Shown piece after piece: positions 173 to 5,598 of a stretch of 7,722 nucleotides of DNA (within the stretch, counting starts at the first letter, position 1; each line of letters starts with the position of its first letter). Origin of the DNA: Deltaproteobacteria bacterium (GTDB lineage Bacteria; JAUYMQ01); the NCBI GenBank assembly GCA_030698575.1, contig JAUYMQ010000303.1, positions 1 to 7,722 on the forward strand, read 5' to 3'. Position numbers and translations under genes: made by a program. The notes beneath the pieces were generated by a model. That model did no database searches. It saw nothing but the letters and a program-made list of their open reading frames with translations, and was not told where the DNA came from.

Positions 173-1816
173 TCAGTTCAGCCGGTCGAAGAGAACGCCC
201 GGGTTCAGGATGCCCCGTGGATCTAGACGCTTCTTGGCGGCGCGCAACGCATCGGCCACCAGCGGGGGGCATTCGTTCAGATACCAGGGCTGGTGGTCGC
301 GCCCGACAGCGTGATGGTGCGTCGTCGCCCCGCCCAGGCGGTCGATGGCTTCCGACGCCGCCTCCTTGATCGCGTCCCACTGCGCAAGGCGCGCGCCGGG
401 CCGCCCCGGGGCGATGACCGTGTAGTAGGGAGCGGGCCCATCCGGATAAACGTGCGTGAAGCGGCAGGTGAGCATGCCGCCGCCGCACACGCGGTCGAGA
501 GCGTCAGTCACCGCCTCCTTCACGCCTGCGTGGAATTTCTCGAAGCCCGACCAGGTGCAGGCGGTCTCGAAGGTGTCCGGAATGAACCCGGCGCGCACCA
601 GATGGTCCCGAATGTAGGGGGCGTCGAGGAACATCCGGCGCCACTGGCCTGCTTCTTCGGGCCGCCCCGCCCCCCCGCTGCCCGCCCTGTCGCTCTCCCC
701 CTCACTTACCCGCGTGTCGCCGGCGACGCTGCCGCCCCGGCCCAGGGCGATCTCGAGGGCCCGGTCGAGCCAGGGGCCGAGCGGGTGATCCGCCGACTCG
801 AAGGCGACGAGCAGCACCGCGCTCCCGTCACTGCGCACGCTGTTCAGCATCGCCTCGCCCGGGTCGAGGAGCCGGCAGTTCGACGGATGGAGATCGGATT
901 GGGCGAGATCGCGCGCCGCCTCCACCGCCTGCCGGAAATCCTGGAAGGCCACGGTGGCGCTGGCGCGAAAGACGGGCCGGCGCAGGACGCGCATGGAGGC
1001 CTCGGTGATGACGCCGAGGCTTCCCTCGCTGCCGAACAGCAGCCGCTTGGGCTCCGGCCCCGCCCCGCTCGACGGAAGGCTGCGGGTCTCAATGATGCCC
1101 GCGGGCGTGACGGCGCGGATGCTGTGGGTGAAATCGTCGATGTGCGTGAACACGGTCGCGAAGTGCCCGCCGGAACGAGTGGCGATCCACCCGCCCAGCG
1201 ACGAGAACTCGAAGGACTGCGGGAAGTGCCGGAGAGTGAGCCCCTCGCCCCGGAGCTGCGCCTCGAGCCCGGGGCCGAGCGCGCCTGCCTGGAAGCGCGC
1301 GAGGCGGCTCTCGCGATCGAGATCGAGAAGTTTGCCGAGGCGGGAGAGGTCGAGGCTCACGACACCGGGATAGCGCTCGCGGAGGCCGCGGGGCTCGACA
1401 CCGCCGACCACGCTGCTCCCGCCTCCGTAAGGAACGACCGCGTAGCCGTGGCGGTCGCAGGTGTCGAGCACCTGTACGACCTCTTCCTCGCTCGCGGGGT
1501 AACAGACCAGATCGGGCGCCGCGGCGAAGTCGCGGTCGAATGCGCGCAGCAGATCACGCAGGCCCTTTCCGTAGGTGTGGCCCGCGCGCTCGAGGGGATC
1601 GTCGGTGGCGCCGCAGCGCCCTAGCGAGTCGGCGCCCTCGCGAATGCGATTCGCCGGCAGGGCGATCTCGCCGATCTGCGGCGCGAGGATCGCTTCCGGC
1701 GCGGCGATGCCGAAGGTCTCGCAAGCGCGCTTGATGAGCGGGCGCGTCACGGCTTCATCCGGCCCGCCGCCCTCCACGCCCCAGCCCCAGAACTTCCTGC
1801 GCCGCATGTCGCGCAT
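173..1816 (-). CDS. AGPS-like FAD-binding oxidase (alkyldihydroxyacetonephosphate synthase family)
   Basis: This 547-residue flavoenzyme has the VAO/PCMH FAD-binding fold followed by an FAD-oxidase C-terminal domain. Family members such as eukaryotic AGPS exchange the acyl chain of acyl-DHAP for a fatty alcohol, forming ether lipids; many bacterial members have no proven substrate. Visible landmarks, in order: KFWGWG (residues 8-13), the FAD pyrophosphate loop PYGGGSSVVGG (129-139), FPQSFEFSSLGGWIATRSGG (198-217), FGSEGSLGVITEA (261-273), YIRD (401-404), FETACTW (416-422), APYYTV (462-467), TTHHHAVG (498-505) and LDPRGILNPG (531-540). Arg403, Tyr464/465 and His500-502 correspond to the arginine, tyrosine and histidine cluster needed for AGPS catalysis, so the enzyme looks active. 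FAD is expected to be non-covalent, as in AGPS. Residues about 371-389 are a Ser/Gly/Glu-rich insert before the conserved W-x8-Y-I-R-D segment. No signal peptide is seen, so it is cytoplasmic or membrane-peripheral. The ATG at 1816 has GGGGGA only three bases upstream; the ATG at 1807 (residue 4) is an alternative start. Exact substrate unproven. Confidence 0.9.
   Translation of the reverse strand: MRDMRRRKFWGWGVEGGGPDEAVTRPLIKRACETFGIAAPEAILAPQIGEIALPANRIREGADSLGRCGATDDPLERAGHTYGKGLRDLLRAFDRDFAAAPDLVCYPASEEEVVQVLDTCDRHGYAVVPYGGGSSVVGGVEPRGLRERYPGVVSLDLSRLGKLLDLDRESRLARFQAGALGPGLEAQLRGEGLTLRHFPQSFEFSSLGGWIATRSGGHFATVFTHIDDFTHSIRAVTPAGIIETRSLPSSGAGPEPKRLLFGSEGSLGVITEASMRVLRRPVFRASATVAFQDFRQAVEAARDLAQSDLHPSNCRLLDPGEAMLNSVRSDGSAVLLVAFESADHPLGPWLDRALEIALGRGGSVAGDTRVSEGESDRAGSGGAGRPEEAGQWRRMFLDAPYIRDHLVRAGFIPDTFETACTWSGFEKFHAGVKEAVTDALDRVCGGGMLTCRFTHVYPDGPAPYYTVIAPGRPGARLAQWDAIKEAASEAIDRLGGATTHHHAVGRDHQPWYLNECPPLVADALRAAKKRLDPRGILNPGVLFDRLN
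665..687 (-). other. Potential G-quadruplex motif inside the AGPS-like gene
   Basis: On the minus (coding) strand this stretch has four guanine runs of 3, 3, 7 and 4 with loops of 1, 4 and 1 bases, which fits the usual G3+N1-7 rule. A further GGGGG run lies just upstream at about 697-701. It encodes part of the low-complexity Gly-rich insert of the oxidase, so it could simply reflect repeated GGN codons. Folding is not proven. Confidence 0.4.
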
Positions 1817-1947: not shown

Positions 1948-2060
1948 TCCAACCCGAGCGGAGGGCCACTGCCCGCATGATGGATCGCCGCCACCAATCT
2001 ATCGAATCTACAGGCCCAAGCCGGCAACCCGTGATCCCCCTCGAGCGCGCGCTGTCCGGC

Positions 2061-2579
2061 ATGAACCGGCGGGACTTCATCCGGCGTTCCGCCGCCGGCC
2101 TCGCTGGACTCACTCTGGCCCAGGCTCTTCTCCCCGCCTGCTCACCCGGGCGAGCCGCGCCCCCCGATCTCCGCGCCCTGGGCCCCGTCGAATTCGCGAC
2201 CCTCTCGGCCGCGGCCGATCGCATCATGGACGGCATGAACTATCCCGGCGGCGCCGACGCCGTCACGATTCTCTTCGACCAGGATCTCGCCCGCGTGCCA
2301 CCCTGGATCAGGTCTCTCTTTATCGACGCGGTCCGGTTTCTCGAATTCTCGCCGCTGCTCTTTTCCTTCCCGCCGGGTCGGTTCAGCACGCGCTCCGCCG
2401 AAGCACGCGATCAAATTCTTCGGGACATGGCCGCGAGCGCGCTTCTCATCCGCCGCCAGGTGTACGCGGGCATCAAGCAGTCCATTCTCTTCACCGCCTA
2501 CTCGCAGCCGGCAACCTGGGCCCCACTGGGATACGAGGGGCCGGGCGCCGTCTTCGAGCGGCGCGGGGGGAAGAAATGA
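2061..2579 (+). CDS. Tat-exported small subunit, gluconate 2-dehydrogenase subunit 3-like, probable lipoprotein
   Basis: This 172-residue protein begins with a textbook twin-arginine signal, NRRDFIRRS (residues 2-10), then a hydrophobic stretch AAGLAGLTLAQALLPA. Cys27 in LLPACS makes a plausible lipobox, so it may be exported folded and lipid-anchored. The mature part shows LGPVEFATLSAAADRIMDG and, near the C-terminus, TWAPLGYEGPG. These resemble the gluconate 2-dehydrogenase subunit 3 family (start of mature domain, and the W-x-x-x-G-Y-x-G-P tail). In related enzymes such small subunits carry the flavoprotein through Tat as a hitchhiker and stabilise it. The next gene overlaps it by four bases (ATGA), which supports a complex. 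The start is uncertain. The frame is open upstream to a TTG at 1929, and ATG 1977 has GGAGG 12 bases before it. Codons from 1977 to about 2028 lack the GC-rich third positions seen afterwards, and ATG 2061 places RR at residues 3-4 as usual, so I prefer 2061 despite its weak SD. Confidence 0.85.
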   Translation: MNRRDFIRRSAAGLAGLTLAQALLPACSPGRAAPPDLRALGPVEFATLSAAADRIMDGMNYPGGADAVTILFDQDLARVPPWIRSLFIDAVRFLEFSPLLFSFPPGRFSTRSAEARDQILRDMAASALLIRRQVYAGIKQSILFTAYSQPATWAPLGYEGPGAVFERRGGKK

Positions 2580-4102
2580 TAAGGGTCGGCCGCGAGGTCA
2601 CCAGCGCCACGAAGGATCGGGCCGATGTCTGCGTTATCGGCAGCGGCTCCGGCGGCGCCGTGATGGCGGCGCTACTCGCCGAGTCGGGCAAGGACGTCGT
2701 GGTTCTCGAAGAGGGCGGCAATTTCACGGCGCGGGATTTCACGGGCCGCGAAGGAGAGATGTACCCGCTGCTCTACCGCGACGGCGGCGGGCAGTTTTCC
2801 GCCGACGGCGGGGTGAACGTCCTGCAGGGACGCGCCGTGGGCGGAAGCACCCTCATCAACGCGGCCGATTGCACGCGCATTCCGCCCGAAGTGCTGGAGC
2901 ACTGGGGCACCGTTTACGACGTGGAAGGCGTGAACGAGAAGACGCTCCGCGATTCCTATTCACGCGTCGAGCGCGCGCTCGGCGTGACCGACATCCTGGA
3001 AGGGCAGATCAACCGGAACAACGCGCTCCTCCTCGAGGGCGCGACGAAGCTCTCGATGAAGGGGGGCACCTTCCGCACCAACCGGACGGGCTGCGCCGGC
3101 ATCGGCACCTGCCTGATCGGCTGCCCGGTGAACGCCAAGAAGGGGGCGCATCTGAACTACATCCCCCGTGCGCTTGCCGCCGGCGCCCGTATCTACGCCG
3201 ACGCGCGCGCCGATCGCATCGTCGTCAACAACGGGGCCGCCACCGGTGTGCGTGGTTCGATCCTGGACAGGGAGCGGGGGATCGCCACCTATCCCATCGA
3301 GATCGAGGCGGAGCACATCGTGGTTTCCGCCGGCGCGATCCACACGCCGCTCCTGCTCGCGCGGTCCGGTCTGGGCGGCGAGCAGGTGGGCCGCAACCTC
3401 ACCCTGCAGCCGCAGATTCCCTTCATCGCACTGTTTCCCGAATCCGTCGTCGCCTGGAAGGGGATCCCCCAGTCCACCTATGTCGACGCATTTGATCACA
3501 ACACCGCCAAGCACGGCCTGGGCGGGTACCGGATGGAGGGGATCAGCGGAGGCCCGGGCTTCGCGTCGTTCATCTTCCCGGGCATCGGAGCGGCGCACCG
3601 GCAGCTCTTCGAAAGGTTCGCGAACACCGCGACGGCGCTCATCCTCGTTCCCGACCGGCCCGGCGACGGATTCGTGAGCGCCCAGAAAGGCGGCGGCGCG
3701 AAGATTACCTACACCGTGCAGGATCTCTGGCGGAAGAATGCGCGGAAGGGAATTGCTGCGGCGGCGCGCTGCTACCTGGAGGCGGGCGCGGAGGCCGTTC
3801 TCTGGGCCGACGAGACTGCCGAGGTGATCCGGAGCCTGAAGAAGGCCGAAAAGGCCGCCGCGAATGCGCCGCTCGCCGTCTCGTCGGCGCGGCTGGTGAG
3901 CGCCCACTGCCAGGGCACCTGCCGGATGGGGGAAGATGAGAAAACCTGCGTGGCCGACAGCCGCGGGCGAATGTACGGCGTGAAGGGAGTCACCATCTGC
4001 GACGCGAGCCTCTTTCCCAGCAGCGCCTCCACCCACACGATGATCCCGACCATGGCCATGGCCGATCTCATCGCACACCACCTCATCGACTCAGGCGCCT
4101 GA
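2576..4102 (+). CDS. GMC-family FAD-dependent dehydrogenase, catalytic subunit, with probable 3Fe-4S cysteines
   Basis: This 508-residue flavoprotein would oxidise an alcohol or sugar hydroxyl, passing electrons to an outside acceptor. The Rossmann FAD motif GSGSGGAVMA is at residues 22-31, with the strand-ending acid in VVVLEEGG at 41-48. GRAVGGSTLINA (85-96) is the GMC signature region, VVSAGAIHTPLLL (249-261) the second GMC signature, and SAHCQGTCRMG (442-452) carries the expected catalytic His443. FPSSASTHTMIP (480-491) has His487 where the second active-site residue (His or Asn) is expected. Cys173, Cys179 and Cys183 have CX5CX3C spacing, the same as the 3Fe-4S ligands of direct-electron-transfer FAD-glucose dehydrogenases. 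There is no signal peptide, so export would depend on the Tat subunit upstream. The ATG overlaps that gene's TGA, with GGGGGG five bases upstream. Gluconate/fructose dehydrogenase and long-chain alcohol oxidase relatives both fit, so the substrate is unknown. No cytochrome c subunit follows. Confidence 0.9.
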   Translation: MIRVGREVTSATKDRADVCVIGSGSGGAVMAALLAESGKDVVVLEEGGNFTARDFTGREGEMYPLLYRDGGGQFSADGGVNVLQGRAVGGSTLINAADCTRIPPEVLEHWGTVYDVEGVNEKTLRDSYSRVERALGVTDILEGQINRNNALLLEGATKLSMKGGTFRTNRTGCAGIGTCLIGCPVNAKKGAHLNYIPRALAAGARIYADARADRIVVNNGAATGVRGSILDRERGIATYPIEIEAEHIVVSAGAIHTPLLLARSGLGGEQVGRNLTLQPQIPFIALFPESVVAWKGIPQSTYVDAFDHNTAKHGLGGYRMEGISGGPGFASFIFPGIGAAHRQLFERFANTATALILVPDRPGDGFVSAQKGGGAKITYTVQDLWRKNARKGIAAAARCYLEAGAEAVLWADETAEVIRSLKKAEKAAANAPLAVSSARLVSAHCQGTCRMGEDEKTCVADSRGRMYGVKGVTICDASLFPSSASTHTMIPTMAMADLIAHHLIDSGA

Positions 4103-4158: not shown

Positions 4159-5598
4159 TCAGCCTGTGAGCTTGCGGAAGATGTCGACGTACTGGATGAG
4201 ATGCCGCACGCCGAGGAAGTGCACGATGGCCCGGCGCCGGGCGTTGCGGCCGAGGCGGCGCGCCAGATCGCGCGCGCCAAGCATGCGCTGGAGCGCGTCG
4301 CCGAACTGCTTCAGGTTTTTCGGATCGTCAATGAGCAGGCCGTGGATGCCGCTCTTGATCTGGTCCTGGATCCCGCCCACGCGGCTGGCGACGATCGGAC
4401 GCCCCTTCCACATGGCCTCGGTCACCGTCAGCCCGAACCCCTCATAGAGGCTCTTCTGCACGACCACCGCGGCGTGGCGCTGGATGGCGTTCACGATGGC
4501 CGCGTTCTCCTCGATATCCTGCATGGGAAGCGAGACGAGGTGCACCCGCGCGCGTTTTGCGGGGGGTAACGCCTTCCACGCGGCGATGCATTCCGCGAGC
4601 ACCACTGCCCCCTCGGGATCATCCGAGACGCCGCTAACATCGGGGCCCACGAGCGCGAGGTGCGCGTCCGCCACACCGTTGAGGTGAGCGGCGAAGCCCT
4701 GCATCACGCCTGCCATGTCCTTCAGCCGATCCCAGCGCGAAACCTGCACCACCAGCGGCGTGTCGAAACCGGGAACCTGGCTGTTGCTGACGATCTCAGC
4801 CCGCGAACGAACGACCGCCTCGGCGCCGTTGTGACGCCTGAAAATCGGCTCAGTGTCGCTGTGGCCGGCGTTCACGAGCCCCACGTGCCGCAGGATGGCG
4901 TGGACCGTGGCCCTCGGTATTTCGTAATTCTTCGAAGAGAACGGGTCGATGGAGGGCGCCACCGTGAAAGTCCGGCTCCGGTCGATCCAGGGCGGCGCAT
5001 AAGCGTCGCGGGAGAAGACGTAACCGTGGGCGCTTCCGACGTACCTGCGCAGGAACTCCCAGGTCTGGCTGATCACGCCCTGCTGATCGTCGTGCCCGAT
5101 GTGGCAGCGCCAGATCACGAGTGCGCCGAGCTCGACCATCGCCGAAACGAGGCCGGCAGTCTGGGGATCGTGGAGAAGGACGAGATCACCCGGCCTGATG
5201 AACCGCCTGAGCTCCACCGCGTTGAAGGCCGACACGGCGGCGTAGTGAGGGTGATCAGCCTCCCCGGGCTCCTCGCCCTGCGCCAGGAGACCGTGCAGGC
5301 CGTTGTGAATCCGCTTGGTGAGTGCGTAGAACTCCGGATCCCCCTCGATGACCAGCCAGCGCGCGTCGACCCCGGCGTCGCGGGCGTAGGGGAGGATTGA
5401 ATAGAGGATCTCCGCGACCCCGCCGCCCGTGGCGGTGGAGTTCACGTTCCAGACTCTGATTTTCGAGAATCCCGTTCGCGCCCAGGCAGCTACGACCTCA
5501 ACCGCGGCCATGCGCTTGTCGCCGATGGCGGGGCGGAACCGCTCCAGGGGGAGCGAACCGATATCTACTTCTTGCACAGGCGGCATATCAGAGATCAC
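4159..5598 (-). CDS. treT: GT4 glycosyltransferase, trehalose synthase (TreT-like)
   Basis: This 479-residue protein is a retaining GT4 enzyme of the TreT/trehalose phosphorylase group, which joins NDP-glucose and glucose into trehalose in the cytoplasm. Landmarks: EVDIGSLPLERF near residues 10-21; NVNSTATGGGVAEIL (51-65), the glycine-rich acceptor/donor loop; RWLVIEGDPEF (80-90); LLHDPQTAGL (141-150); WRCHIG (163-168); APSIDPFSSKN (214-224); VSRWDRLKDM (286-295) with Arg288 and Lys293 for the nucleotide phosphates; and EGFGLTVTE (386-394), the EX7E motif with Glu386 and Glu394. Compared with archaeal TreT as I remember it, residues about 241-278 form an extra segment, which I believe is usual in bacterial homologues. 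The start used is GTG at 5598; ATG 5586 (residue 5) is an alternative, and neither has a clear SD. It follows hflC by 44 bases in the same direction, so probably shares its transcript. Trehalose phosphorylase or another glucosyl transfer cannot be excluded. Confidence 0.85.
   Translation of the reverse strand: MISDMPPVQEVDIGSLPLERFRPAIGDKRMAAVEVVAAWARTGFSKIRVWNVNSTATGGGVAEILYSILPYARDAGVDARWLVIEGDPEFYALTKRIHNGLHGLLAQGEEPGEADHPHYAAVSAFNAVELRRFIRPGDLVLLHDPQTAGLVSAMVELGALVIWRCHIGHDDQQGVISQTWEFLRRYVGSAHGYVFSRDAYAPPWIDRSRTFTVAPSIDPFSSKNYEIPRATVHAILRHVGLVNAGHSDTEPIFRRHNGAEAVVRSRAEIVSNSQVPGFDTPLVVQVSRWDRLKDMAGVMQGFAAHLNGVADAHLALVGPDVSGVSDDPEGAVVLAECIAAWKALPPAKRARVHLVSLPMQDIEENAAIVNAIQRHAAVVVQKSLYEGFGLTVTEAMWKGRPIVASRVGGIQDQIKSGIHGLLIDDPKNLKQFGDALQRMLGARDLARRLGRNARRRAIVHFLGVRHLIQYVDIFRKLTG

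Follow-up and report, generated by a model that had tools for sequence, protein, structure and literature searches.

BcGDH of Burkholderia cepacia (6a2u, 8hdd, 8grj) is an FAD-dependent glucose dehydrogenase made up of gamma, alpha and beta subunits. The catalytic alpha subunit is a GMC flavoprotein that carries a C-x5-C-x3-C motif and has no signal peptide of its own, while the gene for the small subunit, which has a Tat signal, lies just upstream. In the structure, the small subunit packs beside a 3Fe-4S cluster, which is separated by 7-8 angstrom from one of the hemes of the cytochrome subunit (PMC9727119). In the literature found, the small subunit is presented as a Tat hitchhiker, and the cytochrome is counted among the parts of the complex. 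The fructose dehydrogenase of Gluconobacter (FdhSCL; 7w2j, 8jej) also possesses a cytochrome subunit, FdhC.

The gene pair considered here resembles the first two components of these enzymes. It lies in a window of 7722 bp, which is one whole contig (G000:C35) of genome G000. This assembly comprises 4.13 Mb in 653 contigs and is 91.6% complete and 4.6% contaminated, such that a gene that is not found may be unassembled. G000 is also the sole member of its phylum among the genomes surveyed. The relevant features of the window are these:

173-1816, minus strand: divergent neighbour, a GlcD-like FAD-linked oxidase (PF01565, PF02913)
1960..1965, plus strand: GGAGGG, Shine-Dalgarno-like, followed after 11 nt by an in-frame ATG (1977) (from the sequence)
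2061..2579, plus strand: small subunit, 172 aa, Gluconate_2-dh3-like, with a Tat signal (ORF and profile searches)
2061..2141, plus strand: Tat signal region (NRRDFI and a hydrophobic stretch), with C27 of LLPAC as its last residue (TIGR01409)
2576..4102, plus strand: GMC flavoprotein catalytic subunit, 508 aa, without a signal peptide (PF00732 2.8e-44, PF05199 2e-20)
3092..3124, plus strand: Cys173-x5-Cys179-x3-Cys183, predicted 3Fe-4S ligands (alignment to BcGDH alpha Cys212/218/222)
3905..3907, plus strand: His444, predicted GMC catalytic histidine (invariant in the 27-sequence alignment A2)
4034-4036, plus strand: His487, probably the second residue of the catalytic pair (alignment A3; Asn in most relatives)
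4159-5598, minus strand: convergent neighbour, a TreT-like GT4 glycosyltransferase (TreT_GT1 1.9e-41), 57 nt past the GMC stop

The small-subunit and GMC genes overlap by 4 nt (a shared ATGA), and the GMC reading frame, which begins MIRVGREVTSATKDRADVCVIGSG, lacks a signal peptide. A preliminary description of this DNA had proposed a small subunit with a Tat signal overlapping a signal-less GMC flavoprotein, flanked by a divergent gene before and a convergent gene after, with no cytochrome encoded alongside. Both reading frames are found as listed above, and the description is confirmed. The heme-binding motif CxxCH is absent from every window ORF of at least 80 aa, and thus no cytochrome gene accompanies the pair. 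Past the TreT-like glycosyltransferase gene come hflC and hflK, encoded on its strand, with that gene directly downstream of them. As greedy ORF calling yields antisense noise in the GC-rich G000 genome, searches with protein families were substituted where it was important.

Translation of the small subunit may in fact begin at the ATG at 1977, 84 nt ahead of 2061, giving a protein of 200 aa. A good Shine-Dalgarno sequence precedes this codon and none precedes 2061. Initiation at 1977 would place an n-region of 28 residues ahead of the Met-Asn-Arg-Arg of the Tat motif, resembling several relatives. The signal itself scores 18.5 bits against NCBIfam TIGR01409 (cut-off 16.7), and G000 encodes TatC (E 1.2e-67), so that both a twin-arginine signal and a gene for the translocase are present, as expected of a Tat substrate. 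C27 is the sole cysteine of the small subunit; the LLPAC in which it sits is lipobox-like, although non-consensus, with Pro at -2. Family membership is harder to read from single sequences. The window small subunit alone (P0001) scores 15 bits against PF13618 (Gluconate_2-dh3), below the cut-off of 23.4, and 19 of 31 aligned small subunits match this family at E <= 0.01. A small-subunit profile searched against PDB sequences found no true relative, the top matches being unrelated chains and a repeat protein that looks designed. As an annotation for small subunits of this kind, ‘gluconate 2-dehydrogenase subunit 3’ is misleading.

Assignment of the catalytic subunit is more straightforward, with GMC_oxred_N (PF00732; 151.9 bits) and GMC_oxred_C (PF05199; 74.2 bits) both above their curated cut-offs. 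A profile built from alignment A2 and run against all PDB sequences matched BcGDH alpha best (6a2u/8hdd, about 3e-39), followed by the large subunit of fructose dehydrogenase (7w2j and others). In this alignment the three cysteines of the window GMC protein fall on the solved 3Fe-4S ligands. C173, C179 and C183, along with H444, are invariant in the 27 aligned sequences of A2; the C-x5-C-x3-C motif arises in only 0.3% of shuffles of the window protein and is present in 81 of 90 GMC ORFs surveyed among relatives; the preliminary description had not mentioned it. A cysteine motif by itself does not fix the type of cluster. Nevertheless, the homology suggests that Cys173, Cys179 and Cys183 hold a 3Fe-4S cluster. 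An AlphaFold model of the GMC protein (P0002), made from four alignment rows, had a mean pLDDT of 59 and a pTM of 0.68, with the cluster loop below 50, and was discarded for questions of cluster and interface. Compared with PDB folds, the model identifies the GMC fold only, choline oxidase and many others being tied near the top.

Judged by alignment, then, the pair keeps the Fe-S exit port of the known sugar dehydrogenases and is not encoded with their cytochrome. Gene order, the Tat signal of the small subunit and the signal-less GMC subunit are all as in BcGDH, and the fold of the large subunit and the aligned Fe-S cysteines are shared with fructose dehydrogenase. Unlike BcGDH, however, the window pair has no triheme beta subunit, either linked or detected in the genome, and FdhC likewise has no counterpart with the pair. 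There are further differences from BcGDH. The latter has Cys212-Cys213, the second of which forms a disulfide with the small subunit, whereas the window GMC protein has a single cysteine at the first ligand position; the window small subunit has a longer and different C-terminus (LGYEGP); and the window catalytic subunit falls in a separate clade of the tree.

In order to place the missing cytochrome in context, relatives were surveyed, covering 90 GMC ORFs in 88 loci (32 genomes, 3 MAG contigs and 4 plasmid records). A small-subunit partner was found upstream of 58, downstream of 2 and fused to 14, with none detected for the remaining 16. The 16 include contig-end fragments, three loci (L099, L153 and L156) at which the profile missed an annotated or visible small subunit, and L154, a likely missed fusion with about 168 aa ahead of the flavin domain. 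A cytochrome gene directly adjoins the pair in none of the 74 partner-bearing relatives (60 adjacent pairs and 14 fusions), 62 of which have at least 1.5 kb of sequence past the GMC gene. Within 2 kb of the GMC gene only two cytochrome genes were seen, at L129 (661 bp away, same strand) and L139 (1.9 kb, opposite strand). Classical loci, found with a BcGDH fragment, served as controls, and here a triheme cytochrome accompanies the pair in six of six: all five annotated loci and an unannotated B. multivorans locus, in which a frame with three CxxCH motifs lies just downstream of the GMC gene.

A profile of the classical triheme cytochrome (A4) found no match in G000 at 1e-10, with the genome 91.6% complete, and no full-length match in the 40 other genomes that contain relatives, 10 of which give partial stretches of fewer than 170 of its 463 positions. 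Because of these negative results, together with the 0/74 adjoining genes, the lack of a linked cytochrome is the rule in the window pair's own family. In a quick tree with SH-aLRT support, which calls for cautious reading, the window pair sits in a clade of seven with full support; every member is a Tat pair and none has a cytochrome. The classical enzymes group apart from it in a supported clade of their own. A cytochrome always near homologous pairs, which the preliminary description had named as a refutation, is clearly not what the survey found. The idea of an enzyme of the classical three-subunit type that exceptionally lacks its cytochrome is not supported; what stands is a Tat-dependent pair without a linked cytochrome. 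In G000 the gluconate/fructose type of triheme cytochrome was not found, and an unlinked 331-aa protein with three PF00034 domains is encoded on contig C458.

At L099 (6791-9554, genome G014) an enzyme of this type is combined with another sort of cytochrome: a GMC gene, a small subunit with a Tat-like and lipobox-like signal and a c7-type multiheme cytochrome with six CxxCH motifs stand in a row. This locus is a distant relative on a remote branch of the tree. Elsewhere in G014, at L096 (C113), a GMC gene of the family is split into two frames by a stop and is probably a pseudogene or a frameshift.

G000 itself contains eight related GMC proteins and eight small subunits, matching pair for pair, a count that excludes a ninth, remote GMC protein on C101. 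The pairs are on C35, C192, C33, C311, C96, C278 (as a fusion), C236 (with the small subunit downstream) and C432; on C432 the small subunit is followed by a GMC start at the contig end, and probably supplies the front part that the truncated GMC gene on C467 lacks. No heme-binding ORF was found beside any of the eight. At the paralogous pair on C96, a gene for a DsbA-like thioredoxin-fold protein begins at the GMC stop (L067:3818-4435).

The arrangement is not a curiosity of G000. Two-gene, cytochrome-less pairs stand unremarked on annotated plasmids of Paracoccus, Rhodobacter, Caballeronia, Burkholderia multivorans and Alteromonas macleodii, labelled as a ‘GMC family oxidoreductase’ with a Tat or ‘gluconate 2-dehydrogenase subunit 3 family’ protein, and the design is therefore common. 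These pairs differ from that of the window in that their GMC proteins are 26-32% identical to the window protein and lie mostly on deeper branches of the tree. A literature search, with most subscription journals outside its reach, found no study of a cytochrome-less pair and no biochemistry of a close relative.

What does the small subunit do in such enzymes? Scripted classification of 74 small subunits gave 31 with a Tat-like signal, 3 with a membrane or Sec-like segment and 40 with none; a lipobox-like Cys is present in 8 of the 31 Tat proteins. Unsignalled small subunits accompanying unsignalled flavoproteins are presumably cytoplasmic, which means that the small subunit is retained where there is nothing to export. 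In fused proteins the same two domains form one chain, most without an export signal (examples are G000:C278, L009 from a Ktedonobacterales MAG, and L144), and fusion requires about seven changes on the tree, compared with about five for the Tat trait. Because export signals are missing from about half of the relatives, fusion is recurrent and the BcGDH small subunit packs beside the cluster, the small subunit seems to act primarily as a structural partner of the Fe-S site and secondarily as a Tat hitchhiker. The hitchhiker role proposed earlier thus fits the Tat pair of the window, but it is probably not the main one. That the two proteins pair is suggested by the overlap of their genes, their conserved adjacency, the 14 natural fusions and homology to the gamma-alpha complex of BcGDH. 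A C-terminal [G/D]Y-x-GP motif is found in 28 of 31 Tat relatives versus 7 of 43 others, and is absent from five classical small subunits. A link between this motif and Tat was considered and rejected, as phylogenetically independent pairs lend it no support; it is a signature of the clade only.

Taken together, the window pair probably encodes an exported two-subunit dehydrogenase in which electrons pass from FAD to the 3Fe-4S cluster and on to a shared, unlinked acceptor, with no cytochrome in the complex (probability roughly 0.55). The flavoprotein, with FAD and His444/His487, would act in the periplasm, where its Tat partner is predicted to bring it, oxidising an alcohol or a sugar-like compound. 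Electrons would leave FAD singly for the surface cluster on Cys173/179/183, a path proposed because of the homology to BcGDH. The small subunit would pack against and stabilise the cluster region and carry the folded, cofactor-loaded flavoprotein through Tat, and it may stay tethered to the membrane via C27. The cluster would then pass its electrons to either quinone or a general c-type cytochrome. In function the pair corresponds to the half of a BcGDH-type enzyme at which electrons enter; it is outside the three-subunit family, since the triheme subunit, one of those that define that family, was looked for and not found.

Two other readings are less probable. The pair might be a classical sugar dehydrogenase with its triheme cytochrome encoded at another place or lost in an assembly gap, as the shared catalytic and small-subunit design, the same Fe-S ligands and the fragmented, incomplete assembly would allow. 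This is very improbable, however, as the A4 searches described above were negative in G000 and returned no full-length match in the other genomes, the cytochrome would have to be missing for all eight G000 pairs, and the classical enzymes form a clade of their own. Hardly more probable is an oxidase, with FAD reoxidised by O2 and an Fe-S motif that is a vestige or serves a structural purpose. Oxidases are indeed frequent among GMC enzymes of solved structure, but the Fe-S cysteines are invariant across great divergence and the nearest solved enzymes by sequence are dehydrogenases.

The identity of the shared acceptor is a finer question. There is a slight and tentative lean towards the membrane quinone pool, because signal-less relatives use the same Fe-S architecture in a compartment from which c-type cytochromes cannot be reached. 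Somewhat less favoured, though a serious contender, is a general periplasmic cytochrome encoded elsewhere, either class I monoheme or the C458 protein, docking at the cluster like the third heme of BcGDH beta. The short cluster-to-heme distance in BcGDH is in keeping with this, as are the class-I cytochrome domains found in 35 of the 41 genomes with relatives. Given the 17 PF00034 matches in G000, including the three-domain C458 protein, a cytochrome acceptor is quite possible in this organism. On the other hand, the C458 protein does not match the profile of the classical GDH/FDH cytochromes and is encoded close to a further cytochrome fragment and a gene resembling phosphate transporters, half of the relatives seem to be cytoplasmic, and six of the 41 genomes have no class-I domain. 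Among these six, G014 carries a Tat pair in the window's clade (L072) and has no PF00034 match at 97% completeness, although as it encodes another multiheme cytochrome, a cytochrome could still act there.

The genes neighbouring the pair are not conserved in the window's clade, apart from an enolase-superfamily gene at two loci, and so they do not name the substrate. Genes of this superfamily (mandelate racemase type) adjoin the pair in two close relatives (L113:3021-4385 and L116:3590-4942), and Burkholderia multivorans (L153) likewise has an enolase-like gene upstream of its pair. Sugar acids or similar compounds are a possible substrate hinted at by these neighbours. In L155, on the Alteromonas macleodii plasmid, and L154, from Deinococcus radiodurans, an aldehyde dehydrogenase gene directly follows the GMC gene, pointing to oxidation of an alcohol to an acid in these two cases.

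A broader, and still tentative, suggestion is that the pairs and fusions make up a class of Fe-S GMC dehydrogenases in its own right, whose members span phyla, occur on both sides of the membrane and pass electrons from a 3Fe-4S cluster to a non-heme acceptor, for example quinone, with the cytochrome-bearing sugar dehydrogenases as a separate, specialised branch. If this were true, the ‘hitchhiker’ would be foremost a conserved lid over the Fe-S site, and its Tat signal a lineage-specific addition. A large family with an Fe-S exit port, without a cytochrome and often without an export signal makes other acceptors of such clusters directly testable, and the pairs offer smaller enzymes for bioelectrochemistry.
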